Of a stretch of DNA of 62,448 nucleotides, positions 1 to 51,047 are shown piece after piece (position 1 is the first letter of the stretch; every line of letters begins with the position of its first letter). The translations under genes were made by a program, and so were the position numbers. Below the pieces are notes generated by a model. That model was not told where the DNA came from and made no database searches. It saw only the letters and a program-made list of their open reading frames with translations. This DNA comes from Deltaproteobacteria bacterium. Lineage in GTDB: Bacteria > Myxococcota_A > UBA796 > SXON01. Location: positions 1-62,448 of the forward strand of contig CANKOI010000010.1 of NCBI GenBank assembly GCA_947484175.1. Reading direction: 5' to 3'.

Positions 1-33
1 ATCGAGATTCTCGTGATCGAAGGCGTATTCCAC
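1..33 (-). CDS. four-helix-bundle protein, N-terminal fragment cut by window edge
   Basis: Reading leftwards from a GTG at 33-31, the codons give VEYAFDHENLD. This is identical to the start of the 4HB protein encoded at 50715-50957. The rest lies beyond base 1. In both copies the upstream DNA also stays open in the same frame for 30 more codons, to a GTG at 123-121 (50625 in the other copy), with no indels but with several amino-acid changes. A longer N-terminus is therefore possible but weakly supported. The family is the 23S rRNA intervening-sequence protein / Avd-like four-helix bundle. Confidence 0.5.
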   Translation of the reverse strand, partial: MEYAFDHENLD

Positions 34-161
34 ATTGACTCCGGCGGGCCGCGGGTTGAAGGAGGCTCGGCCCCCGCCCAAGCGGGGCCGCAGCCGAACC
101 AACCCGGGGGCTGACGGAGTCACACGGAGAGTTCGTTCATCGAACCTGGATCATCGACGGG

Positions 162-307
162 TCGAGTTTCGGCTCTCGGTCAACCAGTTTCGGTGGTCGA
201 ATAATCGAGTTTCGGCCGTCGAACCTCGGTTGTCGAATCTCGCCCACCGAGCATCGCCCATCGCCCATCGCCCATCGCCCATCGCCCATCGCCCATCGTT
301 CATCGAC
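162..307. repeat. 14-nt TCG-phased array with six CATCGCC heptamers
   Basis: Units such as TCGAGTTTCGGCTC, TCGAACCTCGGTTG and TCGAATCTCGCCCA follow each other at 14-nt spacing, with one 1-nt phase slip near 204. From 252 to 293 the array becomes six perfect 7-nt CATCGCC units, followed by two degenerate units. The same 14-nt or 7-nt organisation occurs at 17699-17754, 29598-29667 and 50546-50582. There is no spacer structure of the CRISPR kind. Confidence 0.8.
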
Positions 308-408
308 CGGCGGGCCCGCGGACTTTGCGACGGCCCTGCCGGCAGGGCCGTTCCGCGGCTCCGCTGCCGGGCTTGCAGAAGCGGCGATTCCGGGTGTACG
401 TTCCGCCG

Positions 409-1380
409 GTGAATGGCCTGCGCAGCGCTGCGGCCCTTGTGCGCCCGGCGTGGGCGGTGCTGTGCGTTTCGGTGGCCTGCGAGTCCCCGCCCGAATCGGC
501 GGGGCGGGAGCCGGCGGCCGAGGAACCTTGGCCCGACGTGGACGCTGCGAACACCGGCCTCTTACTCGACGCTGCCACCCTCTCCGTCGACCTCCAGGCG
601 CATGTGCAATCGCTGCTCAGCTCCCAAGCTGCTGACCCGGTTCTGGCCTTCGAAGCCGCCATGCTCTTCGCCACCGACAGCTGCCCTCAGGTGGCGCGCA
701 CCGAAACGGAGGGCTTCGGGCTTACCGAGTACTTCGACGGCCTGTGTGAAACCGGCGGTGTCGTGTTCAAGGGCCCGGCGATCCTCTACACGTGGAACGA
801 GGAGCGGATCAACCCCATCGGAGCGATGGACAGCGTTGCACAGTTTCCCTCCGAGCTCCTCTGGACAGGGAGGGGCTACAACGGCCAGACCGACATCTTC
901 AGCCTCGCCGGTCCCATGGACTACAACTGCAGTTGCACGATGATCTCGGCGACGGCGGAGTACGACGAGAGCACGCACCTCTTCTTGGGCGTGACCCAAG
1001 GAACGGCCCACTGGACGGCGGAGGGGGCGGAGGGAACCTGGCTGCAGGATGCAGGTTTTGTGCCTGACTTTCTGCTCACCACGGTTGAGCGGGGCACGGG
1101 CCACGGCGTCGAGGCCCGGGGCACGCTCTCCGGCGTGGGGGAGCGGTACACGGCCGCCCTCTTCGACCTGACCCTGCAGGGGGACAACCGCTTCGGCTCT
1201 TGGTCGTGCGGCGAGGGCAATCAGGTGGAGTGGAAGGTGCGTGACTCCTCGGACAGCTCGTGGGCGACCTTCACGATGGGCGTTGACGAGGCCTGCGGAG
1301 CCTGCGGCGTCGAGGTGGGGTTCGAGGAGGTGTGCATCGACCTTGTGCCCCTGCTCGATTGGGAGGGGGAGCCTTGGTAG
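409..1380 (+). CDS. hypothetical surface lipoprotein
   Basis: The protein has about 323 residues when started at the GTG at 409. That start gives a positively charged tip, a hydrophobic stretch and a lipobox-like SVAC, so it is probably an exported lipoprotein; an upstream ATG at 325 would lie inside the mobile element. The mature part is acidic and cysteine-containing (CSCTM, CGACG and SWSCGEG motifs), which suggests disulfides outside the cytoplasm. I recognise no family. Its stop overlaps the start of the DUF1588-like gene, and it leads a four-gene set (409-4570) of exported or cytochrome-like proteins, so it probably works with them at the cell surface. Start choice is moderate; the reading frame itself is well supported by length and position. 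Confidence 0.7.
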   Translation: MNGLRSAAALVRPAWAVLCVSVACESPPESAGREPAAEEPWPDVDAANTGLLLDAATLSVDLQAHVQSLLSSQAADPVLAFEAAMLFATDSCPQVARTETEGFGLTEYFDGLCETGGVVFKGPAILYTWNEERINPIGAMDSVAQFPSELLWTGRGYNGQTDIFSLAGPMDYNCSCTMISATAEYDESTHLFLGVTQGTAHWTAEGAEGTWLQDAGFVPDFLLTTVERGTGHGVEARGTLSGVGERYTAALFDLTLQGDNRFGSWSCGEGNQVEWKVRDSSDSSWATFTMGVDEACGACGVEVGFEEVCIDLVPLLDWEGEPW

Positions 1381-2982
1381 TACTCGCCTTCGCGCTCGGC
1401 TGTGCCACCGTGGCCGTCGATTCTGGCGCCCCCCCAAGAGCCTCCGCCGATGGAGATCGGGCGGCTCGCGTCACGCCTGAGTCTGGACATTCTGGGTCGT
1501 CGCCCCACGGAGAGCGAGTTGCTCGCGGTCCGCTTGGATCCCGCCTCGCTCGAGGCCCAAGTGCAGACGTGGTTGGCGGACCCCGCGTTCGAGGAGCGGG
1601 TGGTGAGCCTGTTCGCCGACGTATACCGCACCCGCCCGGATCGTTACGTCGTGGAAGCCGACGGCGATGCGGCCTTTCACGACCTCACGTATCGGGCGCA
1701 GTTCATGCGCTCGGTGGGCGAGGAGCCGCTCCGGCTCGTGGGCCGTGTGGCCGCGCTCGATCTGCCCTGGACGGACGTGGTCACCGCCGACTGGACCCTG
1801 GCGAACGACCTTCTCCTCGCTCACTTTCCGATCGAAGCGCTCGAATCGGGGGGCGAGGGGTGGCGGCCTGCGCGCTACCTCGACGGTCGCCCCGCGGCGG
1901 GGGTGCTGGGCACCAACGGGATGTGGTGGCGGTACACCAGTACTACGGACAATCTGAACCGGGGGCGCGCCGCGGCGATCGCACGAATCCTGCTCTGCGA
2001 CCAGCGCTACGACGGCACGGTTGACTTCCAGAAGAGCGAAGAGGCCGACGTTTCCGCCCGCATTTCCACCGACCCCGCGTGCGTGGCCTGTCATGTGAGT
2101 CTCGACCCCATCGCGAGCACGTTGTGGGGATTTTGGCGACATCATCCCGAAAGTTACACGGAAGCCCTTCGTTATTACCCCAGCCGCGAACTCGATTGGG
2201 CCAGCCGCCCGGTGGCCCCCCCGGGCTTCTACGGGCAGGACGTCGACTCGTTGTACGAGTTGGGGCAGGCGATCGCGGACGACCCCCGATTCGGAAACTG
2301 CGCGGTGGCCCAAACTTGGTCGTTCCTGCTTGGGCGCGAGCCGACTGTGGCGGAAACCGACCGTTTCAACGACGACCGGGATGCGTTCGTGCGGGGGGGC
2401 CTCGTGTACCGCAACCTGTTCCGCGCGGTGGCTGACGACCCCTGGTATCGCTCTGACTCCGCCGACTTCGAAGGAACCACCGCGCCGCGTCGACTCACCC
2501 CCGACCAGTTGGCTGCTTCGGTCGAGGCCCTCACCGGCTACCGCTGGACCGTGGCCGATGGCATCGACGCGATGGTGAACGACACCTGGGGGTTCCGTAT
2601 CCTCAACGGCGGAGTGGACGGGTCGCTCGTGGTGACCTCTCCCGCCACCGAGTCCGCTCCGGTGGCCCTAGTCCAGGAGCGGCTCGCCGAGCTGGCGGCT
2701 CCCTACGCCGTGGCAGATGAGCTCCTGCTCCCGGCCGGCGATCGGGTGCTGTTCCGCGAGGTGCAGTCGCTCGAAGCCGAGCCCACCGATGAGGAGCTCC
2801 GGGCGCAGATTGCGGGACTGCTCCTACGGGTGCACGGCGCGGCGGCGGCGGTCGACAGCGAGCAGGTGACGATTCTGGTCGAGCTGTGGACGACGCTTCG
2901 TGCGGAGTCCAGCGGCCCTGCGGAGGCCTGGGCCTGGCTCCTCTCCGCCTTGTTCCGCCACCCTGACTTCGTGTTGTACTGA
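1374..2982 (+). CDS. DUF1588/DUF1592-like cytochrome-associated lipoprotein, apparent frameshift in signal region
   Basis: The long frame runs from 1402 (or the ATG at 1450) to 2982, about 510-526 residues. It carries one CxxCH haem-type motif (CVACH, 2080-2094) in the context DPACVACHVSLDPIASTLWG, as in the planctomycete-type DUF1588 family. In that frame there is no signal peptide. A different frame opens with a TTG at 1374, placed just after a strong GGGAGGGGGAG Shine-Dalgarno, and gives MVVLAFALGCATVAVDSGAP, a textbook lipoprotein signal. Removing one C from the seven-C run at 1429-1435 joins the two frames exactly (GAPQEPPPMEIG). The DUF1501 partner follows 2 bp downstream, the usual pairing. 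Function beyond a periplasmic or surface redox role is unknown. Confidence 0.75.
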
Positions 2983-2984
2983 GC

Positions 2985-4244
2985 ATGTCTATGCAGCTTT
3001 CTCGCCGCCAGTTGCTCGCTGCCCTCACCGCCGCTTCGGCCGTGCCTCGCGTGGCTCGCGCCGCCAGCGTTTCCGAGCGACGCTTCATTTTCGTGTACAC
3101 GATGGGCGGGTGGGACTCCACTCGCGTGTTCGCCGACCTCCTCGGCGAGCCGCTGATCGCGACCGAATCCGACGCCTTTACCGCCTTCGCGGGCGGCATC
3201 TCCTTCGTGGACCACGCTTCGCGTCCGTTCGTGCGGGCGTTCTTCGAGGCGTGGCACGACCGCTGCTTGGTGGTGAACGGGGTCTACTGCCCGTCGATCT
3301 CCCATTCGGGTGCGCTGCGGGTCACGTGGACCAACGACTCGGGCGGCGGACTTCCGGACTGGCCCACCCGCATCGCTGCGGCCCAGGCCGACCGTTTCGT
3401 GGTGCCCTACCTCGTAGTGGGCGGGCCGTATTTCGCGGGTGCCAACGGCGTGTACGTGTGCCGCGCGGGAAACGCGAACCAGCTCTCCGACCTCGTGAAG
3501 GGGGATGCGCTCTCGGGCGCGGACCTCCCGGCAACGCCCCCGACGGCCGGCGCCCTCGCGGCGATCGACGAGTGGCTTTTGGCGGAAGGGGGGCGCATGT
3601 CCGCCGATCCCGACGCCGCCCGCGCCCGCGCCGTCACCCGGTGGACGACCGCCCAGTCCCGCGCGCTGGACTTGAAATTGTTAGGTGACGACCTCGACCT
3701 GTCCAGCGGCGAGGAGTTCTCGGAGCAGATCGATCTGGGCGTGCGGGCCCTCGCCACCGGCCTTTCTCGCGTGGTCTCACTCACCCACCCCCGTCAGGAC
3801 TCGCTGACGGCATGGGACTCCCACGCCCTGAACGACCTTACGCAGAGCGAGCTCTTCGAGTCGCTGTTCCTCTCGCTGGGCGACCTTTTGGAGAAACTGT
3901 CTGCGACCCCAGCGCCGGGTGGCGGGATGCTCTCCGACATCACGACGGTGGTGGTGATGTCGGAGATGGGCCGCACGCCCTACATGAACGCCTCGGGCGG
4001 CAAGGACCATTGGCCGTACACCACGGCGCTGTACATCGGTCCTGCCGTTACGGGCGACCGGGTGGTGGGCGGATTCGACGAGGGCCAGTACGGTCGGACG
4101 GTCGACCTTCAAACGGGAGAGATGAGCGAGCAGGGCAGCCTGCTGCGGATCGACACGATCGGCGCCACGCTGTTGCGCATGGCCGACATCGACCCGGCGG
4201 AGGAGGGCGTCGTGGCCGATCCGATCGAAGGTGTGCTGGCCTGA
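2985..4244 (+). CDS. DUF1501 family protein, Tat-exported
   Basis: The 419-residue protein starts MSMQLSRRQLLAALTAAS, a twin-arginine signal. The mature part begins FIFVYTMGGWDSTRVF, matching the GGWD/DxT opening of DUF1501, a family related to alkaline phosphatase and sulfatase folds. Later segments such as VVVMSEMGRTP and GGKDHWP correspond to the conserved C-terminal half, including the usual E/R and D-H pair. DUF1501 genes are typically the partner of DUF1549/DUF1588/DUF1592 cytochrome-like genes, as here. The gene sits 2 bp after that partner and overlaps the next gene by the A of its stop (TGATG). The enzymatic role is not established for the family; hydrolysis of a phosphate or sulfate ester outside the cytoplasm is an inference. 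Confidence 0.85.
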   Translation: MSMQLSRRQLLAALTAASAVPRVARAASVSERRFIFVYTMGGWDSTRVFADLLGEPLIATESDAFTAFAGGISFVDHASRPFVRAFFEAWHDRCLVVNGVYCPSISHSGALRVTWTNDSGGGLPDWPTRIAAAQADRFVVPYLVVGGPYFAGANGVYVCRAGNANQLSDLVKGDALSGADLPATPPTAGALAAIDEWLLAEGGRMSADPDAARARAVTRWTTAQSRALDLKLLGDDLDLSSGEEFSEQIDLGVRALATGLSRVVSLTHPRQDSLTAWDSHALNDLTQSELFESLFLSLGDLLEKLSATPAPGGGMLSDITTVVVMSEMGRTPYMNASGGKDHWPYTTALYIGPAVTGDRVVGGFDEGQYGRTVDLQTGEMSEQGSLLRIDTIGATLLRMADIDPAEEGVVADPIEGVLA

Positions 4245-4570
4245 TGCTGTTCGCATTCATGCTGGCCTGCTCTGAGCCGGCCGACAGCGGGGAGGAGCCC
4301 GCGCTCTGCGCCGACGCGCCCACCGTCACCTGGGAAACCTTCGGCGAGGCGCTGCTCGTGGAGAACTGCCAGTCTTGTCACGCCAGCACCTCCGAGAGCC
4401 GGAACGGGGCGCCCGAGGCCGTGACCTTCGACACCTACGAGGATGCGATGACCTGGGGAGAGTCCATTCTGCGCACGACCGACCCCGCGGCTCGAACGAT
4501 GCCTCCGGGGATTGCGCTCGCCGATGCCGATCGGGAACGGCTGGAGATCTGGCTGCGCTGCTGGGAGTAG
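4244..4570 (+). CDS. small c-type cytochrome lipoprotein
   Basis: The protein has 108 residues. It begins MLFAFMLACSEPADSG, a short signal with a LAC lipobox. The mature region has a CQSCH haem-binding motif at residues 42-46 and a downstream TMPPG (Met86) that can serve as the second axial ligand. Together these make a single-haem cytochrome c domain of minimal size. The ATG overlaps the DUF1501 stop as TGATG, so translation is probably coupled. It is the last gene of the 409-4570 set and supplies a plausible electron carrier for it. What reaction the set performs cannot be read from sequence. Confidence 0.8.
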   Translation: MLFAFMLACSEPADSGEEPALCADAPTVTWETFGEALLVENCQSCHASTSESRNGAPEAVTFDTYEDAMTWGESILRTTDPAARTMPPGIALADADRERLEIWLRCWE

Positions 4571-4612
4571 CCACCACGGGCCGTTAGACCCCGCCACTCT
4601 GCCGGAGGGCTC

Positions 4613-7600: not shown

Positions 7601-7849
7601 TGGGAACCCCCGGCGGTGGAGCTGCGGCGGAGCTCAGGAGACGAAAAGCAGGCGCAAATCGACGCCGTGCGCGCGTTCCAGGCCCGGCACGCGGGCGAAA
7701 CGCCCGCTGCGCTCGCACGCCTCCAGGAAGTGGCACTGTCAGGCGGAAACCTCTTCGCGGAGCTGATGAACACCGTTCGCGTGGCCTCTCTGGGCCAGAT
7801 CAGCAACGCGCTGTACCGAGTGGGCGGCGAGTACCGTCGCAACGTATGA
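4613..7849 (+). CDS. icmF: fused isobutyryl-CoA mutase (IcmF)
   Basis: The 1078-residue protein is about family length. It has the IcmF architecture: an N-terminal B12-binding domain with FDGHDASI (His lower ligand) and SSYQGGH, then a MeaB-like G-protein chaperone, then the mutase barrel. In the G domain are the P-loop GTGGAGKSS, the [15 protein letters not shown] segment, [10 protein letters not shown] and NKFERRGG. In the barrel are [27 protein letters not shown] and [19 protein letters not shown]. The Phe in AGVFP and the Gln in NPISQ are what separates IcmF from methylmalonyl-CoA mutase. It interconverts isobutyryl-CoA and n-butyryl-CoA with adenosylcobalamin and GTP hydrolysis. The GTG start is preceded by CCGGAGGG. 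It overlaps the downstream methyltransferase by 4 bp (ATGA). Confidence 0.95.
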
Positions 7850-8796
7850 CCGCGCCCGTGCCCATTTCGGTGGGGGCGGGCCTGTCGGAAGGCGCGCCGG
7901 CCACCCTTTTGGAGGGGGACTCCCTTCAGCATTTGCGGGCGCTCCCCAGCGGGTTCGCGAAGCTGATCATCACGTCGCCGCCGTACAACATCGGCAAGGA
8001 GTACGAAACGCAGGCCGAGCTGAAACAATACCTCGAGGGACTGCGTCCGGTCATCGCGGAGCTTCATCGGGTTCTCTCGCCGCAGGGCAGCGTGGCCTGG
8101 CAGGTTGGAAACTTCGTGGAGGACGGCGAGGTTTTTCCGCTCGACATTTGGTTCTACCCGCTGTTTCGGAGCGTCGGATTCAAACTTCGGAATCGGATTG
8201 TGTGGCATTTTGACCATGGCTTGCACGCCACCCATCGCCTGAGCGGACGGTACGAGACGCTCCTGTGGTTCACCAAAGGTGACGACTACACCTGGAATCT
8301 CGATCCGATCCGTGTGCCGTCAAAGTACCCAGGAAAACGCAACTACAAGCCGGGGCCCGACTACGGGAAGCCGTCCGGCAATCCGCTCGGAAAAAACCCG
8401 TCGGATATCTGGACGCTGATGGCCCACGAATGGGAGATGGGCTTGTGGAACATTCCCAACGTGAAGGCCAACCACGCGGAAAAAACCCTGCATCCCTGTT
8501 CGTTCCCCATTGAGTTGGTGGAGCGCTGTGTGCTGGCCATGACCGACGAGGGCGACGTGGTGCTTGACCCCTTTTCGGGCGTCGGAAGTGCCATGCTGGC
8601 GGCGTTGAAGCGGGGCCGGCGCAGCGTCGGCATCGACCGTGACCCGCGGTACCTCGCGGAGGCCCGTCGGCGCATCGGCATGTTGGCCGATGGGTCGCTG
8701 CCCTACCGAACGCTGGGGAGGCCCGTGCACGTTCCCACTGGCCGGGAACGGGTGTCTCAGCGTCCCGAAGAGTGGCCGCGGGGGGAAGCGGAGTAG
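7846..8796 (+). CDS. orphan site-specific DNA methyltransferase (beta-class amino-MTase)
   Basis: This is a 316-residue protein with motif IV TSPPY at residues 43-47 near the N-terminus. The S-adenosylmethionine motif ([15 protein letters not shown]) lies near residue 240, followed by GRRSVGID. This circular order is that of beta-class N4-cytosine or N6-adenine DNA methyltransferases; SPPY occurs in both, so the base cannot be assigned. The centre ([19 protein letters not shown], and [14 protein letters not shown]) also matches this class. No restriction endonuclease or specificity gene is near, so it looks like a solitary methyltransferase, possibly regulatory. Its ATG overlaps the icmF stop (ATGA), an odd pairing that implies co-translation with a metabolic enzyme. 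Confidence 0.88.
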
Positions 8797-8830
8797 GTCG
8801 GTGCCCCCCGGTTTCTCGTTAGTCAGGAGC

Positions 8831-10390: not shown

Positions 10391-10513
10391 CCGCTGGAGG
10401 CGGCGATCCGACTTTCTATAAAGAGTAGATCGTGCCGCGCACGGGTAGATCGCCGAGCTGCCGCCGTCGCCACTCGCGGGCCCTTTCGGAGAACTCGCGG
10501 CGTTTCATGCGGG

Positions 10514-10529: not shown

Positions 10530-10537
10530 TTCCTGTC

Positions 10538-10875: not shown

Positions 10876-10914
10876 CGAGGGGGCCGCGGTGGGAGGCCCG
10901 ACCGCGATAGCAGC

Positions 10915-16983: not shown

Positions 16984-17121
16984 TCCAAAACGGGGGGCAA
17001 GGCCTGGCCGGCCAGGGGGATCGCAAAGTCCCCCGCGGCCCGCCGTAGGGGGGATCGACACGGCCGCGATCCTGCGATCTTCTGCGGCTGGCGGTCGTAC
17101 CCGCCTTCACCGGAGCGGAGC

Positions 17122-17691
17122 ATGGCTGTGGCCGTCGACATCGAGGATCTCGTGGAGCGCCTTCGGCGGGTGGAGGATCCGCGGGAGGACCTCGGGTTGC
17201 GGCATTCCCTGGTGGCCGTGCTGTTCATCGCGTTGGTGGCCATGGTCAGCGGGGCCGACGACGCCGAGGCGATGCAGGACTACGGCGAGGCCAACGCCGA
17301 GTGGTTCGGTAAGTTCTTGGAGCTTCGCCATGGAATCCCGTCGCAGGACACGTTTCTACGGGTGTTCGCCCTGCTGTCGACCGAAACGGTAGAGCGCCTG
17401 TTCCTGGATTGGGTCCACGGCCTGCGGACAGTGTGGGAAGGCGGCCACGTAGCGTTGGACGGCAAGACCGTGCGCGGGAGCTTCGACGCCGCCTCCGGGG
17501 GCAAGGCGATCCACATGGTGAGCGCGTGGCTCGCATCGGAGGGGCTCGTCCTCGGGCGGGTGAAGGTGGCCGAGAAGGCCAATGAAATCGTGGCGATTCC
17601 GGGGCCTGCCGGAGTCGCAGGGAGCATTCGTTCATCGAACCTCGTTGATCCGTCGGATGCATTACGCGACTCGACGTTCGGGGCTCGGTGA
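17122..17691 (+). pseudogene. ISAs1 family transposase, C-terminally truncated
   Basis: The first ~165 residues are ISAs1-like. They include the associated N-terminal domain (VEDPREDLGLRHSLVAVLF), GIPSQDTFLRVFALL, the first catalytic Asp in VALDGKTVRGS, IHMVSAW and KVAEKANEIVAIP. After AIP the reading frame runs into unrelated repeat DNA and stops at 17691. The second Asp and the Glu of the DDE triad are therefore absent. A full ISAs1 transposase is about 350-400 residues. The junction at about 17602 coincides with where the 4HB gene begins in the related copies A and D. It is not expected to be active. Confidence 0.88.
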
Positions 17692-17698
17692 TCGCCAG

Positions 17699-17754
17699 TC
17701 GAGTTTCGGCTTTCGAACCTCGGCTATCGAGATTCGCCTTTCGAACCTCGGTCG
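17699..17754. repeat. four 14-nt TCG-phased units in element B
   Basis: TCGAGTTTCGGCTT, TCGAACCTCGGCTA, TCGAGATTCGCCTT and TCGAACCTCGGTCG follow without gaps. Units 1 and 2 resemble units in copy A. The array lies about 50 bp inside the right terminus. Confidence 0.85.
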
Positions 17755-17835
17755 CCGGTAATCGGTCATCGGACACCGTCGGGCGGAGACCGGTCGAGGT
17801 GCCCGCGGACTTTGCGACGGCCCTGCCTGGCCGGC

Positions 17836-21898: not shown

Positions 21899-24800
21899 CA
21901 GCGTGTCTCCGCGCCGGTCCGGCGCCGCCGCAGCGTGAACACGAGGCCCGGAAGGAGCGCGGCGCCAGCCCAGTCCGCCCCACAGCCGCCGCCGGCGAAG
22001 TCGCCCTGGTAGTCAAGCCAGTCGCCCACCCCGTCGTAGTCGAGGTCAACGGTACCTTCGTCCGCGTCGGTGAGGCCGTCGCCATCGCTGTCGAGGTCCC
22101 AGCTGTTGCGCTCGCCGTCGCCGTCCACGTCGGTATCGAAGCTCCCGTCGTCGTCGGTGTCGGTGAGGTTCTCGATGCGCGAGGCGATGCCGTCGTCGTC
22201 GTCGTCGGTGTCGCCGCAGTCGGGCACAAAGTCGCCGTCGTGGTCGGGCCCGTCATGGTACTCGGTGGCGTCGTCCACGCCGTCGCCATCGGTGTCGGGG
22301 TCCTCCGGGTTGCAGCCCACGATCCACTCCTGCAAGTCGGTGAGGGTGTCGCCGTCGCGGTCGTCGTGCTCGGTGTACCCGTCGCAGTCGTTGTCCTCGC
22401 CGTCCACGCGTTCGTAGGCGCCGGGGTAGGTCGCGGGGTTCTCGTCGTCGCAGTCTTCGCCGATCGGGTACCCGTCGTCGTCCTGGTCGTCGTCTCGCCC
22501 GTCGCAGTTCTGATCCACGCCGTCGTACCAAATCTCTTCGGCCTCGGGGTTCACGGCCGCATCGAAGTCGTTGCAGTCGCCGCCGCCGTACACCACATCG
22601 TCCCAGCCGTCGCCGTCCCGATCCCACTCGGAAAATCCGTCGCAGTCGGTGTCGAAGCCGTCGGTCGGGTCCTCATAGGCGCCCGGGTACACCGTGGCTT
22701 GCGCGTCGTTGCAGTCGGCGCCGCCGGCCTCTACGGCCACCCAGCCATCGCCGTCTACGTCGATGAGATCGCTGCCGTCGCAGTCCTGGTCGATCGTGTC
22801 GTAGGGGATCTCGGCGTTTCCGGGGTGGCGCGCGGCGTTGAAATCGTCGCAGTCGCTGCCGCCGTAGTCGCTGGAGATGAAGCCGTCACGGTCACGATCG
22901 TAGTCGTTCCGGCCGTCGCAGTTCTGGTCCACGCCGTCGTACCACACCTCCACAGCGCCGCCGTGTACCGTGAGGTCCTCGTCGTCGCAGTCGTCGCCGC
23001 CGTCGACGAAGGCCGCGTCGTGCAGGTCACCGTCCTGATCGTAGTCGCTGCCGCCCGAGCAGTCCTGATCCACCCCGTCGTACCACACCTCCACGGCGTC
23101 CGGGTTCACGGCGAACGCCGTGTCGTCGCAGTCGTCGCCCCCGGCAATCGTGGCCACGTGGCCGTCGCCGTCGATGTCCACGAGGTCGGAGCCGTCGCAG
23201 TCCTGGTCCACGCCGTCGTAGGCCACCTCGGCTTGCACCGGGCTGATGGCGCTGTTGTCGTCGTCACAGTCCACGTTGTCGTAAAAGCCGTCGCCGTCGC
23301 GGTCGGCCACGTCGGCGTCGGGCCCGCCGTAGGCGCCGATGTCGGAGGGGGAGCCGTCGAGGTCGATGATGGCCGCGTAGCCCGCGTCGATCGCAGGGCT
23401 GCCGGCCTGGAGGTAGAGGCTGTCGTCGGTCTCGTCGCCGTCGGGCGTATACGCCACGAATTCGGGATCGACGTTGAGGTTGCCGCTGGTGCCGGTGGGG
23501 TCGCTCCAGCCCACCCAGTCGCTGCCGGCGTTGTCCCACACGAGGTTGTTGTACAGGTCCGTCGAAGCCGCGGTGCCGTAGGCTCCGCCGCCGTCCAGGC
23601 CCTCGACGAAGAGGTTGTTCACGACCGAGAGCGTGGTCTCCGTGTAGAGGTGGCCCCCGTTGCGGGCTCCGTCGTTGCCGGCGAAGCTGTTGTTCACCAG
23701 CTCGATCTCCACGGTTCCGTTCAGCCAAGCGCCGCCGCCATCCACGCTCGCTTCGTTGTCGGTGATGCGGTTGTTGGTCACGCTGCCCGAACCGCTCACG
23801 TCGTCGAGCGCGAGCCCGCCGCCGTACTTGGCGGTGTTGCCATGAATGTAGGCCCGCGCCACCGCCACGGTGGGCACGCCGCTGGCGCCGACCGCTCCGG
23901 CGTACGCCCCGGCTACGTTGCGGAAGAAGCTGCCCTCGAACACGCTGAGCTCGGCGCCGCCCTGCGCCCACACGGCGCCGCCTGACTCGTCGGCCGCGTT
24001 GCCGGTGAAGCGCGACTCTTCGATGGTGGCGCTGCCGCCCACCCAGATGGCACCGCCGTTCCCGAGGCGGGCTTCGTTGTCGGAGAAGGTTGCGCCGCTC
24101 ACGGTGAGCCCGTCTCCCGCGCCGATCGCGCCGCCGTCCCCCCCAATCGACACGTTTCCGGAGAAGGCACACTCCGTAAGGTCGAGGGAGCCCTCGCCGC
24201 CGATCGCGCCGCCGTCGCTCCCGGCGTCGTTGCCGTCGAAGGTGGCGGTCTCTGCGCTGTAGCTGCCCGTTCCCGTCACCGAAACCGCACCGCCGTCGGC
24301 GGTGGCTTCATTGTCGGTGTACTTCCCGCCCACATCGACGAAGGTTGAGCCGGTCCCCACGTCCACGGCGCCGCCGTCTGCGCCAACGTTGCGCGTGAAT
24401 ACGCAGGCGTCGCAGTCCACGGAGGCGCTGCCGCTGAGCGAAACCGCCCCGCCCCCGGCACTGCTCTCGTTGTCGGCGAAGCGCACGCCGATGAGGCGGG
24501 CCGTGGCGCCGTCGCCCACTGCGAGCGCGCCGCCGCCGTAGGCCAGATTGTCGGAGAACTCCACGCCCTGGAGGTCTGCGCCGCTGCCGTCGACGAGCGC
24601 GATGGCGCCGCCGTCGTAGCCGCCGCTCCGGCCGCTCGCTACGGCGCCCGAAATCGAGCTGGTGGTCAGGGTGAGGCTGCTGTGATCGGTGAGGTAGAAG
24701 CCCACCCCCGAGGTGTTGCGCCCGGTGGGGTTTACCACTTCCACGGCATCGCCCACGAAGGAGGCGTTGTCGAGGTAGGCGAAGCCGCCGTGCGAGGTGG

Positions 24801-29417: not shown

Positions 29418-29589
29418 TACCGAACGAGTCCCCGCAGCATCGCGCCAACCCGATGTTGAGTACCACCGAATCCGCAGCGCGCTGGAGTTGATCTCGCAGT
29501 GCCGCCCTCCCCGTGGCGATCCGCAGCGCCGGACAGCCGCGAGCGACCTCGAGCGCGAGGCGGTAAACATCGAGATTCTCATGGTTGAA
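29418..29589 (-). pseudogene. four-helix-bundle protein remnant
   Basis: Reading leftwards from 29589, the frame gives FNHENLDVYRLALEVARG, then LRDQLQRAADSVVLNI, the canonical first half of the IVP/Avd-like family. The homology then jumps, out of frame, to the DNA that encodes the last ~12 codons in copy D (gttggcgcgatgctgcgggg). It continues past the equivalent stop into matching downstream sequence. The N-terminal codons are replaced by the 14-nt array. This is an internally deleted, frameshifted copy. Confidence 0.75.
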
Positions 29590-29597
29590 CAGACACC

Positions 29598-29667
29598 GGT
29601 CATCGAATCTCGGTCATCGAATCTCGGTCATCGAATCTCGGTCATCGAATCTCGGTCATCGCTCGAC
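29598..29667. repeat. four perfect GGTCATCGAATCTC units plus one degenerate
   Basis: Perfect copies lie at 29598-29611, 29612-29625, 29626-29639 and 29640-29653, then GGTCATCGCTCGAC at 29654-29667. The perfect identity, unlike the degenerate arrays in copies A and B, suggests recent expansion. Confidence 0.95.
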
Positions 29668-29719
29668 ACGCCCCGCCGACGTTGCGACAGCCCCCGCGCC
29701 CCCCGCGGTGCCCCCCTCC

Positions 29720-41034: not shown

Positions 41035-41070
41035 GCGCCCCGCCGGTGGCGGCGGCGTTACATCGCTGGC

Positions 41071-45080: not shown

Positions 45081-46480
45081 TCGGTCTGTGCCCGCCGGCC
45101 GGAGATTTCGCGTCGGCAGCCGGGCGCCCCGCAGCCGCAAACAAACGGCGTCATGTCGGGGCCGCAGAACGTGGCGTAGTCCACGCTGAGGGCTTCGTCG
45201 GCGGCGATCGGGCGGCGGGCCACGAGGTCGAGGCCGAGGAGCTCGGTGTTGGGGTCGCAGCTGTGGTTGAGGGGCCTCCAGTCCTCGGGGTTCTGGCTCC
45301 ACATCGCGAACACCTCGGCCGAGAGCGGCCACGCGTACCGGTGAAACCACTCGGCGTGCGCGCCGGGCCACCGCTCCTCTGCGTGGCGCCGCGACACCAG
45401 CCGTTGCGGCTCCCCTTCGTATCGGACCGCCACCTCGCCCGCACCGATGGGCGCGCTGGCCACGAGCTCGAACCCTCGCTCGCGGGAGAATCGGTGCTCC
45501 CACGGGCGCACGGCCTCGTCCCGGCGGCGCAGCGCCGTCGTGAGCATGTGTTCGAGGAATCCGCGGTGCCCGAGCGGATCGGCGTCGAGGATCGTGTCGG
45601 CGCTCCCGTACTGGCCGAGCGGGTAGAAAATCCCGCAATTGGGGTTGATCTCGAGGAAGTAGATTTCCCCGGCGGCGTCCATGCGAAAGTCGAAGCGGCC
45701 GTAGCCCGACCCCTCGATCGCCACCCACACGGCGGCGGCGGCGCGGCGAAGCGCCCGCTCGAGCGAGGGATCGCTGACGACGCAGGTCTCCATGGTGGCG
45801 TGGCTCTCCCACTTCAGCTCGAAGTGTTTGAAGCTCTCGCCTGTTGGAAAACGAAACTCCACGGGCATCAGCACCAGCGGCTCCGTGGGCGCCTCCGCTC
45901 CCTCCGCCACCAGCACCGTGAACTCCCGTCCCTCCACGAACTCTTCGATCAGCGCGGCGCCGTGGCGCTCGATGAGCGTCGCAGCCTCCCGGCTCAGGTC
46001 GGCCGGCGTCGTGACTCGCGACCGCGGGGTGAGCCCCACGCTTCCGTAGCCGCGCGGGTGCTTCACGATCAGCGGAAAGCGGAGCGTTTCGTGGGCGCGT
46101 TGCACGTCCCGGGGAGTGCGCGCCTCAACGAACGGAGGCACGCTCACGCCGGCCGAGTGCGCGGCCATCTTCATCGCCAAGCGGGAGGGGTCGTAGCCCC
46201 GTGAGCCCGCACCGGTGAACGCCACGCCCAACTGCTCGAGCGCCTGCGTCACCTCAATTCCGGCCCGGTCTTCGTCCCAGGCGCCGTCGCAGAGGTTCAC
46301 GAATACGTCGAATCCTTCCCGGTGTGCTTCGAGCAGCGTCTGTACCGCCGTGGCCTTCTTCAGCGAGAGGTGCGTCCACTGGTGTTCGGGCGCGAACCGG
46401 GAAGGGTCACATTCCGGGTCGAGGGCGGCGAAGGGGGCGTTGGAGCCCTCAGCGGAGGGGGTGAGGAGGGCAAGCCGCAT
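45068..46480 (-). CDS. ATP-grasp ligase fused to a SET domain
   Basis: About 470 residues from the ATG at 46480. Residues 1-300 are ATP-grasp of the D-Ala-D-Ala-ligase kind: FDVFVNLCDGAWDEDRAGIE, FTGAGSRGYDPSRLAMK, FPLIVKHPRGYGSVGL, LIEEFVEGREFTVLV and EIYFLEINPNCGIFYP. The C-terminal ~140 residues form a SET domain: ERGFELVASAPIGAGEVAV, the core RPLNHSCDPNTE, ADEALSVDYATF and a post-SET CGCGAPGCR Cys cluster for zinc. One chain could thus ligate an amino acid or peptide and methylate a lysine. No peptide substrate gene is visible. It overlaps the pseudo-PHP gene convergently by 13 bp and is divergent from the trypsin-like gene. Confidence 0.85.
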   Translation of the reverse strand: MRLALLTPSAEGSNAPFAALDPECDPSRFAPEHQWTHLSLKKATAVQTLLEAHREGFDVFVNLCDGAWDEDRAGIEVTQALEQLGVAFTGAGSRGYDPSRLAMKMAAHSAGVSVPPFVEARTPRDVQRAHETLRFPLIVKHPRGYGSVGLTPRSRVTTPADLSREAATLIERHGAALIEEFVEGREFTVLVAEGAEAPTEPLVLMPVEFRFPTGESFKHFELKWESHATMETCVVSDPSLERALRRAAAAVWVAIEGSGYGRFDFRMDAAGEIYFLEINPNCGIFYPLGQYGSADTILDADPLGHRGFLEHMLTTALRRRDEAVRPWEHRFSRERGFELVASAPIGAGEVAVRYEGEPQRLVSRRHAEERWPGAHAEWFHRYAWPLSAEVFAMWSQNPEDWRPLNHSCDPNTELLGLDLVARRPIAADEALSVDYATFCGPDMTPFVCGCGAPGCRREISGRRAQTDQLG

Positions 46481-46566
46481 GCGCGCCGGCCTTAACATCC
46501 GAAATTTACGATCAGCGCACGCTGTGGGCGCGGTTGCTGGGGTAGCCTGCGGCGCCCGGAGGCTCC

Positions 46567-47502
46567 GTGTTCCTGTTCCCCTCGCTCGCGCTCGCCGCCG
46601 CCCCGCCGCCGATCATCAACGGCGAGACGACGACGGACTACCCGGAGGTCGTGGCGTTGTACATCACGGACTCCACCGGGCGTCAGGGCGGCATGTGCAC
46701 CGGCTCCCTGATTTCGCCCACGTGGGTGCTCACGGCCGCCCATTGTGTGAGCGACACCCGGGATTTTGAGGTCGACGCCGTGTACGTGATGTTCGTGAAC
46801 ACCACGAACGACGCCGACAACGGAAATACGAAGCTCGCCCGGGATTGGATTCCCAACCCCAACTACAGCGACAGCACCGGGTACAACGACATCGCGCTGA
46901 TCGAGCTCCGCACCGAGATGGACGGTCCGTTCATGCCGCTCACCGAGATCGGGCTTCGGCAGAAGGACGTTGACACCGATTTCCGCATCGTGGGCTTCGG
47001 CGCCACCAGCGACAACGACAGCAGCACCAACGCCAAGAAGCGGGTCGTGGATGTGCCGCTGGCCGACTACGACACCAGCCTGATGCACACGGAAGACAAC
47101 GCCGACGACCAGAACGCCTGCCATGGCGACTCCGGCGGTCCGGTGATGCGCCTCTACGAAGATGGCACCTACTCGGTGGCCGGCATCGTGGACTTCGGCG
47201 GCCCCAGCTGCATGCGCGATGGCACGTACTCGGCGCGGGTGGACACCTACATGGACTTCATCGGCGACCACGTGGATGACTACACCCTGTGGGCCGCCGC
47301 GGAGGAAGAGGAAGAAGAGGAGGAGCCGGTGGACACCGGCACTCCGGACGACACCGGCTCGGCGGGCGAAGACACGGGGGGCGACGAGGGGGGCGACCCC
47401 GCTTCCCCGCTGTCTCCAGGGATTTGCGGGACGGAGTCGTCGGCGGGACTGTTCGCGGCCGCCCTGGCGGGACTCATGGTGGGGCGTCGGCGGCAGGGCT
47501 GA
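46567..47502 (+). CDS. trypsin-like serine protease with MYXO-CTERM-type tail
   Basis: The 311-residue protein starts at a GTG and has a signal peptide (MFLFPSLALAAAPP). Its activation-type N-terminus is IINGETTTDYPEVVAL. The chymotrypsin-fold triad is seen as LTAAHC (His), GYNDIALIEL (Asp) and CHGDSGGPV (Ser). A Glu-rich stretch (eight Glu in a row) and a D/T/G linker lead to GICGTESSAGLFAAALAGLM and RRR, a single-Cys MYXO-CTERM-like end. It is therefore a surface-attached protease. Specificity pocket residues are not assignable. Convergent with the cyanophycin synthetase gene, 3 bp apart. Confidence 0.92.
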   Translation: MFLFPSLALAAAPPPIINGETTTDYPEVVALYITDSTGRQGGMCTGSLISPTWVLTAAHCVSDTRDFEVDAVYVMFVNTTNDADNGNTKLARDWIPNPNYSDSTGYNDIALIELRTEMDGPFMPLTEIGLRQKDVDTDFRIVGFGATSDNDSSTNAKKRVVDVPLADYDTSLMHTEDNADDQNACHGDSGGPVMRLYEDGTYSVAGIVDFGGPSCMRDGTYSARVDTYMDFIGDHVDDYTLWAAAEEEEEEEEPVDTGTPDDTGSAGEDTGGDEGGDPASPLSPGICGTESSAGLFAAALAGLMVGRRRQG

Positions 47503-47505
47503 GCG

Positions 47506-50400
47506 TCAGTCGCTGGCTTCCGCTGGCGACGGCCGCACGCCGCGCTCGTCGCGCACATAGCTGGGCAGTTCGACAGGCGCGGACGGCGGGTGTTCGCCCA
47601 CCTGAGCGTGCTCGACACGTTCGTCGTGGGCGCTGGGGTGGGCGTCAGTTGGCGGTGCTGCCCGCGTCGGCACCGGGACGGGAGCCTCGGGCGTGAGGTA
47701 GGAGGCCTGTGGGCTCGCGGTGGCTCCCTCCGCCGGCTTGCGTCCGCCGAAATAAATGATTTGTTTCCAGCAGCGCGTGATCTCGTCTCCGAAGATGAGC
47801 ACGATGTCTCCCGGCGCCGCCGTGCTGAGCGCGCGCTGGACCGCCTCCTCCTCCGACTCGACGCGCTGGATTCGTTCCGGCGCGATGCCCTGCGCGAGTA
47901 GCCCCCGCTCTAGGAGCCCCGTGATCTCCCCCACGGCGCGCCCGCGCAGGTTGTCGTCGGCCTTGAGGATGAACCGGTCGAAGCTGGGTGCAACGCGACG
48001 CGAGATGTTGAGCACGTCTTCGTCGCGACGGTCGCCGGGCGCGCTGAGCACCACGATGCGCTGGCTGCCCGGCCGGTGAGTGTCCCCTTCCGTGAGCAGG
48101 TCGACCAGCTGGCACATGGCCGCCACCGCGGCGGGGTTGTGACCGTAGTCGAGGATCACCTTGAAGCCGAGCTGGTCGTAGACGTTGCCCCGGCCCGGCG
48201 CCTGGAAGAAGGTGGTGTCGAAGGTGCGGAGCCCTTGCCGGATGTCTTCCAAACGCACGCCCATCGACCACGCCATCGCCGCGGCGAACATCGCGTTCTG
48301 CACGTTGTGGAGCGCCTTGCCCTCAAGGGTGGCGGGGATCAGGTGTGTCCACAACAGGGGCATGTGCGCCCCGTTGTCGTAGATGGCGATCATTTGCCCG
48401 TTCACGCCGGCCTCGAGCGCCACGGCGCGCCCGCCCGCACGGATGTGCTCCCGCACGAGCGCGTTGTCGTTGCACATCGTCACCCAGCAGATCGTTTTGG
48501 CGACAGAGCGTTCGGCCATGCGGAGGCAGAGAGGGTCATCGGCGTTGAGCACGATGGTGTCGCGGGCCGCCTCAATCGGAATCCGCTTCACCTCGGCCAG
48601 CTGTTCGAGCGTGTTCACCCCGCCCATGCCGAGATGGTCGGCGCTCACGTTCAAGCAGCAGGCCACGTTGGGGTGGCGGTACGCCAAGCCGGACCGCAGC
48701 ATTCCGCCCCGCGCAGTCTCCAAGATGGCGACCGTCACGTGGGGGTCGGTGAGCACCATGCGCGCCGCCATCGGGCCGGTCATGTCGCCGGCCACGGTGG
48801 GTCGGCCGTCGATGTACACGCCATCGGTGGTGGTCATGCCGACCACTTCGCCGCGCAGCTTGTGGATGTGCGCGAGCATGCGCGTGGTGGTGGTTTTGCC
48901 GTTTGTACCGGTGATCGCGGCGATGGGGATGCGGGACTGGCTGCCGGGAGGGAACAGCATGTCGAGCACCTTGCCGGACACATCGCGAGAGCGTCCTTCG
49001 CTGGGCGCGACATGCATGCGAAAGCCAGGCGCCGCGTTCAGCTCACAGATGCCGCCGCCGGCGTCCTTCCAGCTCCGACTGATGTCGGGCGTGAGAAAGT
49101 CCACGCCGCACACGTCAAGCCCGACGGCGGCGGCGGCACGAATCGCCATCTCGCGGTTGTCGGAATGGCAGACGTCGGTCTGGTCGATGGCCGTGCCGCC
49201 CGTGGACAGGTTGCCGGTGCTCCGCAGGTAGAAGCGCTCACCCGCGGGGAGCACGGTGGCGGCGGTGTGGCCGGCCTTCAGCAGGAGGCGCTCGGCTTGC
49301 GCGTCGAGGGCGAGCTGCGTCAGCACCTTCTCGTGCCCGATGCCCCGCCGAGGGTCCTGGTTCACGATCTCGACCAGCTCGGCGATGGTGCGCGTCCCGT
49401 CTCCCACCACGTGCCCCGGCACACGTTTGGCCACGGCCACCAACTCGCCGTTGACGACCAACATGCGGTGGTCAAAACCGGTGATGCACGTCTCCACCAG
49501 CACGGTGTCGCTGTGCACCTCTGCCTCTACGAACGCGATGCGCACCTGCTCCGCGGTGGTGAGCCCGATCGACACGCCTCGTCCGTGGTTGGCGTCGAGC
49601 GGTTTGACGACGACGGGGTAGCCCAGCTCCACGGCGGCCTCTACGGCTTCGTCTGCGCTGTAGACTTGCTCCTGTTTGGGCACGGGCAGGCCGAGGTCGC
49701 CAAGAATGCGGTTGGTCAGCTCCTTGTCGCCCGCGATGTCCACCGCGATGTGCCGGGTTTCGCTGGTGATCGTGGCTTGAATGCGCCGCTGGCGGAAGCC
49801 GTGGCCGAACTGCACGAGTGAGCCCGACGACAGGCGCACCCACGGGATGTCGCGTGCTTCGGCCGCCCTCACCAGAGAGGCCGTGCTGGGGCCGAACGCT
49901 CGCTTCTCGGCGCCGCGGATCAGCGCGTGCAGCTCGGTAGTGAAGTCGAACACCGGGTCGGGCTCGGCGTCGCCGCGGAGGGCCGGCGGGATCAGGGAGT
50001 GCAAGAGGCGCAGCGCGAGGAGCCCCGCCTGTTCCCCCACCCAACCGTCTTCGTACTCGTAGACCATGTGGTACTGCCCGCGCACGCCGTTCCCGCGGGT
50101 CTTTCCGAAGGTGACGCGCGCCCCGGCCAAGTTCTGCAGCTCGATCGCCACGTGCTCCATCACGTGCCCCATCCACGTGCCGCCGTCCTCCCGCAGCCGC
50201 CGCACAAAACCGCCCGCCTCGCCGAAGCTGCATCCGTGTTCGCCGAGACTGGGAATCGCGGCCACCAGCGCATCCACGAAGCCCGGGATGCCCGCGCTGG
50301 GCGCTTCCTCCAGCGGCCCGAGGTCGAGGGTCATGCGAATGACCTTGAAGTTGGCGTAGAGGTTCGGTCCGACGTACACGCGCTTGTCGAGGATGCGCAC
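47506..50400 (-). CDS. cphA: cyanophycin synthetase
   Basis: The 964-residue protein starts at a GTG and has the three-domain CphA plan. An N-terminal domain (1-about 210; GPNLYANFKVIRMTLDLG, MGHVMEHVAIELQNLAG) comes first. The ATP-grasp domain (about 215-480; YPVVVKPLDANHGRGVSI, CGVDFLTPD, CELNAAPGFRMH) adds Asp. The Mur-ligase-like domain (about 490-890; AITGTNGKTTTTRMLAH, ILETARGGMLRSGLAY, LDYGHNPAAVAAM) adds Arg. It makes the nitrogen-storage polymer multi-L-arginyl-poly-L-aspartate. The last ~75 residues are a Pro/Ala/Glu/Asp-rich extension. No cyanophycinase or isoaspartyl dipeptidase is nearby. A TIR element (50508-51004) lies 107 bp upstream of the start, in the probable promoter region. 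Confidence 0.93.
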   Translation of the reverse strand: MRILDKRVYVGPNLYANFKVIRMTLDLGPLEEAPSAGIPGFVDALVAAIPSLGEHGCSFGEAGGFVRRLREDGGTWMGHVMEHVAIELQNLAGARVTFGKTRGNGVRGQYHMVYEYEDGWVGEQAGLLALRLLHSLIPPALRGDAEPDPVFDFTTELHALIRGAEKRAFGPSTASLVRAAEARDIPWVRLSSGSLVQFGHGFRQRRIQATITSETRHIAVDIAGDKELTNRILGDLGLPVPKQEQVYSADEAVEAAVELGYPVVVKPLDANHGRGVSIGLTTAEQVRIAFVEAEVHSDTVLVETCITGFDHRMLVVNGELVAVAKRVPGHVVGDGTRTIAELVEIVNQDPRRGIGHEKVLTQLALDAQAERLLLKAGHTAATVLPAGERFYLRSTGNLSTGGTAIDQTDVCHSDNREMAIRAAAAVGLDVCGVDFLTPDISRSWKDAGGGICELNAAPGFRMHVAPSEGRSRDVSGKVLDMLFPPGSQSRIPIAAITGTNGKTTTTRMLAHIHKLRGEVVGMTTTDGVYIDGRPTVAGDMTGPMAARMVLTDPHVTVAILETARGGMLRSGLAYRHPNVACCLNVSADHLGMGGVNTLEQLAEVKRIPIEAARDTIVLNADDPLCLRMAERSVAKTICWVTMCNDNALVREHIRAGGRAVALEAGVNGQMIAIYDNGAHMPLLWTHLIPATLEGKALHNVQNAMFAAAMAWSMGVRLEDIRQGLRTFDTTFFQAPGRGNVYDQLGFKVILDYGHNPAAVAAMCQLVDLLTEGDTHRPGSQRIVVLSAPGDRRDEDVLNISRRVAPSFDRFILKADDNLRGRAVGEITGLLERGLLAQGIAPERIQRVESEEEAVQRALSTAAPGDIVLIFGDEITRCWKQIIYFGGRKPAEGATASPQASYLTPEAPVPVPTRAAPPTDAHPSAHDERVEHAQVGEHPPSAPVELPSYVRDERGVRPSPAEASD

Positions 50401-50545
50401 AGCTCAACTCAGGGAGGGGGCGAGCTTAGCGGGCTGGCGAGGCCGGGGCGATGTGCTGGGCCCGGAAGCTCGTCGCAGCGGGGCCGCCGCACATCGCTGA
50501 GCCACCGCAGGGCGGTCGCAAGCTCCCTCCCCGCCTGCCCATGAC

Positions 50546-50582
50546 CGAGTTTCGATAATCGATAATCGATAATCGAAACTCG
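50546..50582. repeat. palindrome built on three TCGATAA heptamers
   Basis: Arms CGAGTTTCGAT and ATCGAAACTCG enclose the centre of three TCGATAA units (50552-50572). The whole 37-nt stretch is close to a perfect inverted repeat and is AT-rich compared with its surroundings. In RNA or single-stranded DNA it would form a strong hairpin. Confidence 0.85.
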
Positions 50583-50714
50583 ACGACCGACGGATGAGCG
50601 AGGTTCGATCAACGAAGTGTCCCTGTGACTCCGGCAGTCCGCGGCTTGGTTCGGCTGCGGCCCCGCTCAGGCGAGGGCCGAGCCTCCTTCAACCCGCGGC
50701 CTTCTGGAGTCAGC

Positions 50715-50957
50715 GTGGAATATGCCTTTGATCACGAGAATCTCGATGTTTACCGCGTGTCACTCGAGGTCGCTCGCGGCTGTTCGCGGTTGCGGATCGC
50801 GCTGGGACGGTCCCCGTTGCGCGACCAACTCCAGCGCGCCGCAGACTCCGCCGCAGAAGCCTGCGCGGCGCTCGATCTGGTGGGCACGCCCGACGCGCTG
50901 GCCCTCCAACCGAAGCTTCGGCGTGTTGGCGCGATGCTGCGGGGCCTCGTTCGATAG
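50715..50957 (+). CDS. four-helix-bundle protein (23S rRNA intervening-sequence/Avd-like), internally deleted
   Basis: The 80-residue protein starts at a GTG with GGAG 6 bp upstream. It reads VEYAFDHENLDVYRVSLEVA, then LRDQLQRAADSAAEACAALD, ending KLRRVGAMLRGLVR. The family (TIGR02436-like) is normally about 115-120 residues. The RAAxS(I/V)xLNIAEG...GSAxE block has collapsed here to RAADSAAEA, a loss of about 33 codons in frame. The packed bundle may therefore not form. The frame stays open upstream to a GTG at 50625. It is the only coding capacity of element D. Whether it is expressed or functional is doubtful, but homologous DNA occurs at 1-33 and 29418-29589. Confidence 0.65.
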   Translation: MEYAFDHENLDVYRVSLEVARGCSRLRIALGRSPLRDQLQRAADSAAEACAALDLVGTPDALALQPKLRRVGAMLRGLVR

Positions 50958-51047
50958 CCTCGTTCGCGGCCGGAGCGCGTGGCGCCGACGTTGCGATCGT
51001 CCTGCGCGCCGCCGCCGCGAGCCATCCCTGTGGGCTACGCTGCCCCC

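Follow-up and report, generated by a model that had tools for sequence, protein, structure and literature searches.

What kind of element is dispersed over the 62,448-nt contig of a deltaproteobacterium analysed here (the window), and by what is it moved? A preliminary description had recognised four loci that share one architecture and had taken them for a non-autonomous family of ISAs1-type transposons carrying a four-helix-bundle (4HB) gene. The shared architecture and the ISAs1 link have largely held, and a wider survey suggests that heptamer repeats, so far unexplained, stem from a type of mobile element that has been overlooked.

Four broken copies in the window

The element is built from inverted ends of the form CAGGGC(G)GTCGCAAAGTC, a CGA-phased array of 7-nt units, a hairpin leader and a 4HB gene (TIGR02436/PF05635). 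All four copies in the window are broken: A is truncated by the contig, B is chimeric, C is degenerate and D is internally deleted. Copy A, on the minus strand, has a 4HB gene that the contig and window start breaks off after 11 codons (1–33), followed outward by the hairpin leader (TGACTCCG...CGGAGTCA, 34–125; its folding was computed on copy D and on the copy of contig C27), the array (approximately 127–306) and a terminal inverted repeat (TIR, 321–338) located by the end-pattern search. Copy B lies between the two halves of a perfect 10-bp target duplication (17003–17012 and 17826–17835) and comprises an ISAs1-type left end (17013–17030, plus strand, 2 mismatches), a plus-strand ORF (17122–17691), an inverted array (approximately 17629–17790, minus strand) and, from the end-pattern search, a right end of the 4HB-element type (17808–17825, minus strand). 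Residues 1–160 of this ORF are the front of an ISAs1 transposase, as had been proposed (NF033564, 142 bits, 1.9e-41, profile positions 1–128 of 314 only; PF13808, 2e-26), and a 4HB leader remnant and array follow. Copy C (minus strand) consists of an N-terminal 4HB remnant (29451–29589, 86% identical in DNA sequence to the copy on C27), a 14-nt (2x7) array (29597–29665) and a degenerate end (29678–29695, 2 mismatches). Copy D (plus strand) has a left TIR (50508–50525, 1 mismatch), an array (approximately 50547–50605), a hairpin leader (50621–50717, z -5.0), a 4HB gene with an internal deletion (50718–50957), for which profile searches gave no family match, and a right TIR (50987–51004, minus strand, 2 mismatches). 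A 4HB gene or its remnant is thus present at three loci, as first described, and no intact one was found in the window.

All four arrays were also called by Tandem Repeats Finder, and their longest in-phase CGA runs (every 7 nt) are 8, 12, 9 and 7 in A to D; no run longer than 3 arose when each copy was shuffled by mononucleotide 1000 times. Other parts of the first account stood only partly. The 18-bp ends of A, B and D show 0–2 mismatches to CAGGGCNGTCGCAANGTC, and C lacks CAGGG, since 29678–29695 reads GGGGGC... there. The leader said to be common to A, B and D is whole in A and D; B retains its outer piece only. Duplications of 8–10 bp had been expected, and the one at copy B has no counterpart at copy D or at the complete copy C4.

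In a covariation test of the leader hairpin, RNAalifold predicted no pair on a MAFFT alignment of 17 leaders, so that its support comes from folds of individual sequences (z -5.0, -2.0, -7.8, -10.6 and -7.9). In window-type 4HB genes the hairpins contain the SD, and Rfam recognised no known RNA at five loci.

The family in the genome and its link to ISAs1

Copy A was matched at 16 other places in the genome, and the search with the end sequence that the preliminary description had called for found the 18-bp end exactly at 19 places and with one mismatch at 4 more; these are places, not copies, both ends of one copy being counted separately. With all hits of up to 3 mismatches pooled, the reversed-pattern control gave 63 against 124. 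Chance coincidence of the four loci was ruled out by the genome matches, the end search and the CGA-run shuffles. The copies on C4 and C11 are bounded by TIRs on both sides. An intact relative of the 4HB gene is located at C27:36006 (TIGR02436 43.7 bits, PF05635 42.8 bits); between it and the C1 gene, whose start is removed by the contig end, dN/dS is 0.07, which indicates purifying selection.

Copy B has an ISAs1 end on one side and an end of the 4HB-element type on the other. Its structure, in which the front of the transposase meets the array end in inverted orientation inside a 10-bp duplication, supports ISAs1-type mobilisation. C-terminal parts of ISAs1 transposases were found at C5 and C63, and the contig ends C33, C75, C83 and C99 have short stretches that resemble ISAs1 left ends and share the TIR core. 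A full-length ISAs1 element with the same ends had been anticipated; no full-length transposase gene was found in the genome. At C5 and in a sister genome (G009:C41), transposase and 4HB leader/array are convergent within one end, which suggests an ancestor of the form TIR-tnp> <4HB-leader-array-TIR. The window copies probably descend from an ISAs1-type transposon into which a 4HB element had been taken up, and have since decayed to non-autonomous forms.

Contrary to what had been supposed, the combination of array and 4HB gene is not particular to this ISAs1-ended family. Two further 4HB genes of the same genome (C13 and C116) are accompanied by leader hairpins and by 7-nt arrays whose sequence is different, and the end was not found near them with up to 2 mismatches. 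Because these arrays differ and inverted arms are common in other groups, the window array is taken as one local form of a feature that goes with 4HB genes, to which the ISAs1 ends seem to have been added. Three TIR types accompany 4HB genes in the order of the window organism: the ISAs1-like type, CAATGCCGG and, in genome G055, GGGCGCGAT. The CAATGCCGG elements show a perfect 10-bp target duplication in 3 of 5 bounded copies and 9 of 10 matching positions in a fourth, and none was seen by eye in the 7 bounded copies among 8 scanned loci of the GGGCGCGAT type. Such variety of ends favours an alternative that we regard as unlikely, namely that the 4HB gene is MITE-like cargo moved by assorted transposases, the arrays being slippage repeats and the arms decayed or expanded TIRs.

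Inverted short-repeat arms at 4HB loci across bacteria

Most 4HB genes lie between two inverted arrays (arms). This holds for 80 named loci from many phyla as well as for Gammaproteobacteria, CPR and cyanobacterial plasmids; the loci surveyed are mostly best-scoring matches and not a random sample. The arm units are mostly 7 nt long, sometimes 6, 8 or 9 nt; their sequence varies among loci and both arms of one locus match (own-arm match 15.8 vs 8.1, 0/5000 permutations). A period-7 score of at least 10 was reached upstream in 49% and downstream in 42% of 76 4HB loci, against 2% and 4% of 134 controls, and an inverted match of at least 14 in 53% against 0% (4 of the 80 loci were left out for short flanks). 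Any arm signal was present in 65/77 named loci compared to 15/104 flanks of other genes at the same loci (3 of 80 left out likewise); 12 of the 77 have no arm by these thresholds. A replicate set, from which L271 of a 15-locus set was left out (same site as L193, with a stop inside), gave an upstream arm in 37/43 vs 2/38 and an inverted match in 34/43 vs 0/38. Additionally, any arm signal was found in 23/30 CPR loci vs 1/58, and the cyanobacterial plasmids showed by eye an upstream arm in 12/12 inspected loci and an inverted downstream arm in 11; L246 and L247 are one site. Calothrix H2 and H3 proved to be one duplicated plasmid segment. The protein itself is very common: of the 379 genomes sampled in the phylum to which a Candidatus Uhrbacteria genome belongs, 201 have a match.

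In the class of the window organism (75 loci, 23 of 98 being left out for short flanks), a strong upstream array was present in 46, a downstream one in 16 and an inverted match in 19, whereas shuffles gave 0 for each. That the downstream array is absent from most class loci again fits MITE-like cargo. Against it, the 7-nt period and the upstream mode of five motifs stay constant while the sequence changes, and so does the orientation of the AG polarity with respect to the gene: among runs of at least 4, AG predominates upstream (68, CT 12, of 129) and CT downstream (44, AG 10, of 128). By core-motif length, 44 of the 129 upstream runs have five motifs, 18 four and 12 six, while length 5 occurs in 5/237 control runs (four duplicates and L246 were left out of the motif-run and polarity counts). 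In a threshold-free count, downstream runs of 5 (32/128) are only as common as background runs of 3, and CPR downstream runs peak at 3 (16/30). The solved S23 entries 2gsc and 2rld have five chains each.

The upstream arm stands a median of 22 nt from the start codon (n=75). This proximity, together with the SD-containing hairpins of window-type genes, would suit translational autoregulation only, in which the 4HB protein binds its own leader array (ring-protein attenuation) and the element is not self-mobile. We consider this very improbable: it has no need of a downstream inverted arm or of matched arms, and it leaves empty sites with duplications unexplained.

Insertion sites and mobility

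Insertions occur at gene ends within operons. The stop of a long upstream ORF lies within 20 nt of the arm start at 35/60 loci, compared to 9.4% of 3000 random points within 200 nt. Three copies (L245, L251 and L252) sit between cas genes on plasmids; 'empty' plasmids for cas6/cas4 and cmr2/cmr3 were rejected as empty sites, their spacers being too divergent for the junction to be read. Among eight sites compared, two show a clean 5-bp target duplication. The mobility of the arm-only form rests on empty sites because no enzyme was found. At both clean sites the element's two ends have different outermost tips, which again speaks against MITE-like cargo: MITEs have no coding capacity and fixed TIR tips, whereas the 4HB gene shows a dN/dS of 0.07 between the C27 and C1 copies. 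At one site, L247 and L259 differ in repeat number by 14 nt, as slippage repeats would. One 4HB query had no match in phage records.

The 5-bp duplications fit DNA integration (n=2 only) and so count against an RNA-level element (intervening-sequence/SINE-like), in which the arms would pair in the transcript, a reverse transcriptase would act in trans and the 4HB protein would be Avd-like. This has in its favour a weak similarity to Avd and bAvd (5.9e-07; 6.6e-06, 7.8e-08), under curated cut-offs, and the S23 gene found between inverted repeats in rRNA intervening sequences (PMC4990558). A reverse transcriptase in trans was rejected: RVT_1 is equally frequent with or without 4HB genes in the class (14/28 vs 21/43 genomes, hand tally), and none was found in the window genome (94.71% complete), though it holds many copies. 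We consider the RNA-level element improbable.

Proposed element

The reading that we prefer, with a probability of about 0.6, is a minimal mobile element with heptamer-array ends around a 4HB gene, which in the window genome was taken over by an ISAs1 transposon; the enzyme that cuts and joins would be supplied in trans. In its general form it would consist of one S23/IVP (TIGR02436) gene between two inverted arms, most commonly of five motifs. A solved relative of the protein forms a pentameric ring, and each subunit of the protein could bind one heptamer on each arm; it would bind nucleic acid at the element ends, perhaps also its own mRNA directly before the start codon, may mark or pair the ends, and would itself be needed for propagation. 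The enzyme, which is not in the element, would in the window genome be an ISAs1-type transposase acting on the added TIRs. A broader version is offered tentatively: S23/4HB proteins may be the end-binding proteins of bacteria-wide minimal elements, the pentamer reading five heptamers per arm, 23S rRNA intervening sequences may be their rRNA-inserted members, and many orphan arrays (cyanobacterial, GGGAATC, TAACTGA) their footprints.

Comparison with known systems

The window elements resemble ISAs1 family insertion sequences in the TIRs and, at copy B, in the transposase and the 10-bp duplication, and 4HB copies have the same TIR core; they differ in holding a 4HB gene, a hairpin leader and a CGA array inside. 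We know of no ISAs1 element with these three parts, and a literature listing on ISAs1 showed none. Avd, the DGR accessory protein, shares remote sequence similarity and the four-helix bundle with 4HB proteins, which score under the Avd and bAvd cut-offs.

The 23S rRNA intervening sequences hold one S23 gene between inverted repeats, are sporadic and are regarded as selfish or horizontally moved (PMC4990558). They share the S23/IVP gene with the window family (three of four proteins exceed the PF05635 cut-off, the exception being the deleted copy D) but sit in rRNA helices, whereas 4HB elements lie between protein genes with tandem 7-nt arms. Rfam placed no 4HB gene within 23S rRNA in 40 loci (L330 has a 23S gene downstream), nor an rRNA-borne copy among 35 CPR loci.

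Heptanucleotide repeats of cyanobacteria are known as STRR; these and the GGGAATC, GGGGA(C/T)T and TAACTGA repeats have the same 7-nt period as the 4HB arms. Such repeats are mostly intergenic, with inverted pairs in Xanthomonas (PMC4692102), and horizontal spread is suspected although 'no mechanism is evident' (PMC4679880). The main text of neither paper contains the terms 'S23' or 'four-helix', and no report linking 4HB genes to heptamer arrays was found in the portions of open-licence literature covered. The 23S rRNA IVP is among the CRISPR-linked proteins of a large screen (PMC10910872), which may be explained by the copies between cas genes. If true, the preferred reading would supply this common but uncharacterised small protein with a function that can be tested, and would also provide a source for the unexplained heptamer repeats of cyanobacteria, Xanthomonas and Beggiatoaceae and a possible origin of rRNA intervening sequences.

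Element copies in the window and its genome

The window is the whole of contig C10; the assembly comprises 167 contigs and totals 4.37 Mb. The preliminary description had ascribed one shared architecture to four loci; all four are real and at none is the element intact. Copy A (1-338) is a left half in which the contig start cuts the four-helix-bundle (4HB, S23/IVP family) gene after codon 11, copy B (17013-17825) is a chimera, copy C (29451-29695) is a degenerate remnant, and copy D (50508-51004) has both ends and an internally deleted 4HB gene. The order of the element is terminal inverted repeat (TIR), CGA-phased 7-nt array, hairpin leader, 4HB gene and TIR; the array had been described as TCG-phased with 7/14-nt units, and it holds up once its unit is recast as a run of CGANNNN heptamers. 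The window also has long-period tandem repeats within long ORFs (61065-61725, 213 bp; 22885-23143, 141 bp).

As a DNA query, copy A gave 20 matches in the genome, that is, 16 places outside the window with the two rows of C4 merged, some of which represent a second family that has only the end and the array type in common with it. The 18-bp end has 19 exact matches, and many of these are at contig ends, the pattern that repeat collapse in assembly would produce. Copies with both ends are found at C4:52002-52504 and C11:1-579, while the 4HB gene is intact at C27:36006 and nearly so on C1; dN/dS between the latter two genes is 0.07, which indicates that the protein was kept during the spread of the family. 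Second-family copies with the same 18-bp end and a different array (C11:61487, C44:126, C92:147, C164:3315 and C117:11093) each run off a contig end, and so none of these stretches shows the family's interior.

Connection with ISAs1 and other TIR elements

The ORF of copy B is the front of an ISAs1 transposase (NF033564, 1.9e-41), followed by a 4HB-element leader remnant, array and end, all in inverted orientation, and a perfect 10-bp duplication bounds the whole copy. Since both parts lie within one duplication, one ISAs1 end and one 4HB-element end seem to have moved as a single unit. On C5, an end, an array, a truncated leader and the C-terminal half of the 4HB gene are abutted by an opposite-strand ISAs1 C-terminal half, and in a sister genome (G009:C41) a truncated ISAs1 frame faces an inverted leader, array and end. 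Judged from these sequences, the simplest ancestor would be TIR-tnp> <4HB-leader-array-TIR, with the short copies as its deletions; no complete copy of this form was seen among the copies found. The short ends on C33, C75, C83 and C99 are assigned to ISAs1 from start residues and TIR only.

Besides ISAs1 in the window's genome, 4HB cassettes of genomes G006, G009 and G055 lie within CAATGCCGG ends, apparently captured secondarily. Both boundaries are present in five of the eight such loci scanned, and by eye the 10-bp duplication is perfect in three of these, 9/10 in one and absent in one. In G055, 7/8 loci scanned lie within GGGCGCGAT ends, with no target duplication visible by eye at the seven.

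Many window-type 4HB genes have an 80-90-nt hairpin upstream of the start codon that includes the Shine-Dalgarno sequence. Five that were folded gave z of -2.0 to -10.6; the hairpin sequence varies between genomes, and an alignment-based covariation test found no pairs.

Arrays around 4HB genes in other genomes

In the window's genome, 4HB genes on C13 and C116 have a leader hairpin and arrays of other 7-nt units, and no ends with up to two mismatches were found near them; 4HB genes of other genomes were therefore examined. At one C13 locus (L068, 57300-58124) the arrays are of GGGAGAC type with 6/7-nt units and the leader hairpin is very stable; no TIR was seen. TIGR02436 is present in 28 of 71 genomes of the window organism's class. 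Flanks were extracted for 98 listed loci and the 75 with enough flank were scored: a strong array lay upstream in 46 and an array downstream in 16, and 19 had an inverted match, against zero for all three in one shuffle of each locus. The second, downstream arm is often absent in this class.

The 80 top-scoring loci in a scan of the whole collection with a VWQKAH-type query came, by record titles, from Bacteroidota, Poribacteria, Chloroflexota, Nitrospirota, Planctomycetota, Verrucomicrobiota, Acidobacteriota, Proteobacteria, CPR, Clostridia and others. Of those with enough flank, 76 were scored against 134 pseudo-loci of the same neighbourhoods and 77 against the sequence flanking 104 other long ORFs; replicates comprised 43 loci (14/15 from one set and 29 from another, four already among the 80), 30 CPR loci and 12 of 30 matched plasmids. 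In all of these sets, most 4HB genes lie between mirror-oriented short-unit arrays, most commonly with a period of 7 and also of 6, 8 or 9. Twelve of the 77 loci fell below all arm thresholds (L163, L166, L172, L179, L185, L191, L193, L194, L201, L212, L218, L239), and 15/104 control neighbour genes passed one. CPR genomes of about 1 Mb (G466, G622, G711 and others) hold 9 to 12 4HB matches each, and one CPR 4HB gene (L330) is closely followed by a tRNA gene and a 23S rRNA gene.

Polarity and repeat number of the arms

The polarity is constant, with AG-containing units forward in the upstream arm and reversed in the downstream arm. The match of a gene's downstream array scored 15.8 with its own upstream array vs 8.1 with those of other genes, and the own upstream array was the best match of the downstream one for 32/78 genes. 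Counting identical dinucleotides spaced 7 nt apart, a threshold-free measure, gave a mode of five repeats upstream (44/129, only 12 at six); downstream, five (32/128) equals background runs of three, with 5 at six. When only arms above a score threshold are counted, five is the commonest number both upstream (37/90) and downstream (25/68). CPR upstream arms likewise have five repeats in 11/30, and CPR downstream arms peak at three. Two solved relatives were found, 2gsc and 2rld, each with five chains; 2gsc (XCC0516) is presumably the Xanthomonas campestris S23p structure. That structure is described as a toroidal homopentamer (PMC4990558). There may be one heptamer per protein subunit.

Insertion sites and empty sites

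At 35/60 scored loci, the stop codon of a long upstream ORF is no more than 20 nt from the arm start; the same holds for 9.4% of 3000 random points placed up to 200 nt from the arm. Eight filled plasmid sites were compared with relatives, and two are clean with a readable duplication: Trichormus and Scytonema filled vs three ~97% identical empty plasmids (GTAAT), and Nostoc pNsp_a filled vs empty pNsp_c and p057_H (TTCTA). At the latter the upstream stop codon is preserved as TAA, and pC052_D has one change in the second duplication copy. The other six have the gene between the same neighbours and no readable duplication. At one site, the array in one plasmid is exactly 14 nt longer than in another. 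In some plasmids the element separates cas6 from cas4, cmr2 from cmr3, or two ribonucleotide reductase genes. The 4HB genes L245, L251 and L252 occupy the cas and cmr positions, and this may be why IVP turns up in CRISPR-neighbour screens.

Relation to known elements

Already published are S23/IVP genes within 23S rRNA (PMC4990558), heptamer repeats in Xanthomonas and Nostoc, inverted pairs included (PMC4692102), TAACTGA repeats (PMC4679880) and IVP in CPR rRNA insertions (PMC11270868). A link between S23/IVP genes and heptamer repeats was not found in the open-licence literature searched. Taken alone, the window copies would count as a new form of ISAs1 derivative. The general element has repeat arrays for its ends and no enzyme of its own, and it matches no mobile-element kind compared here.
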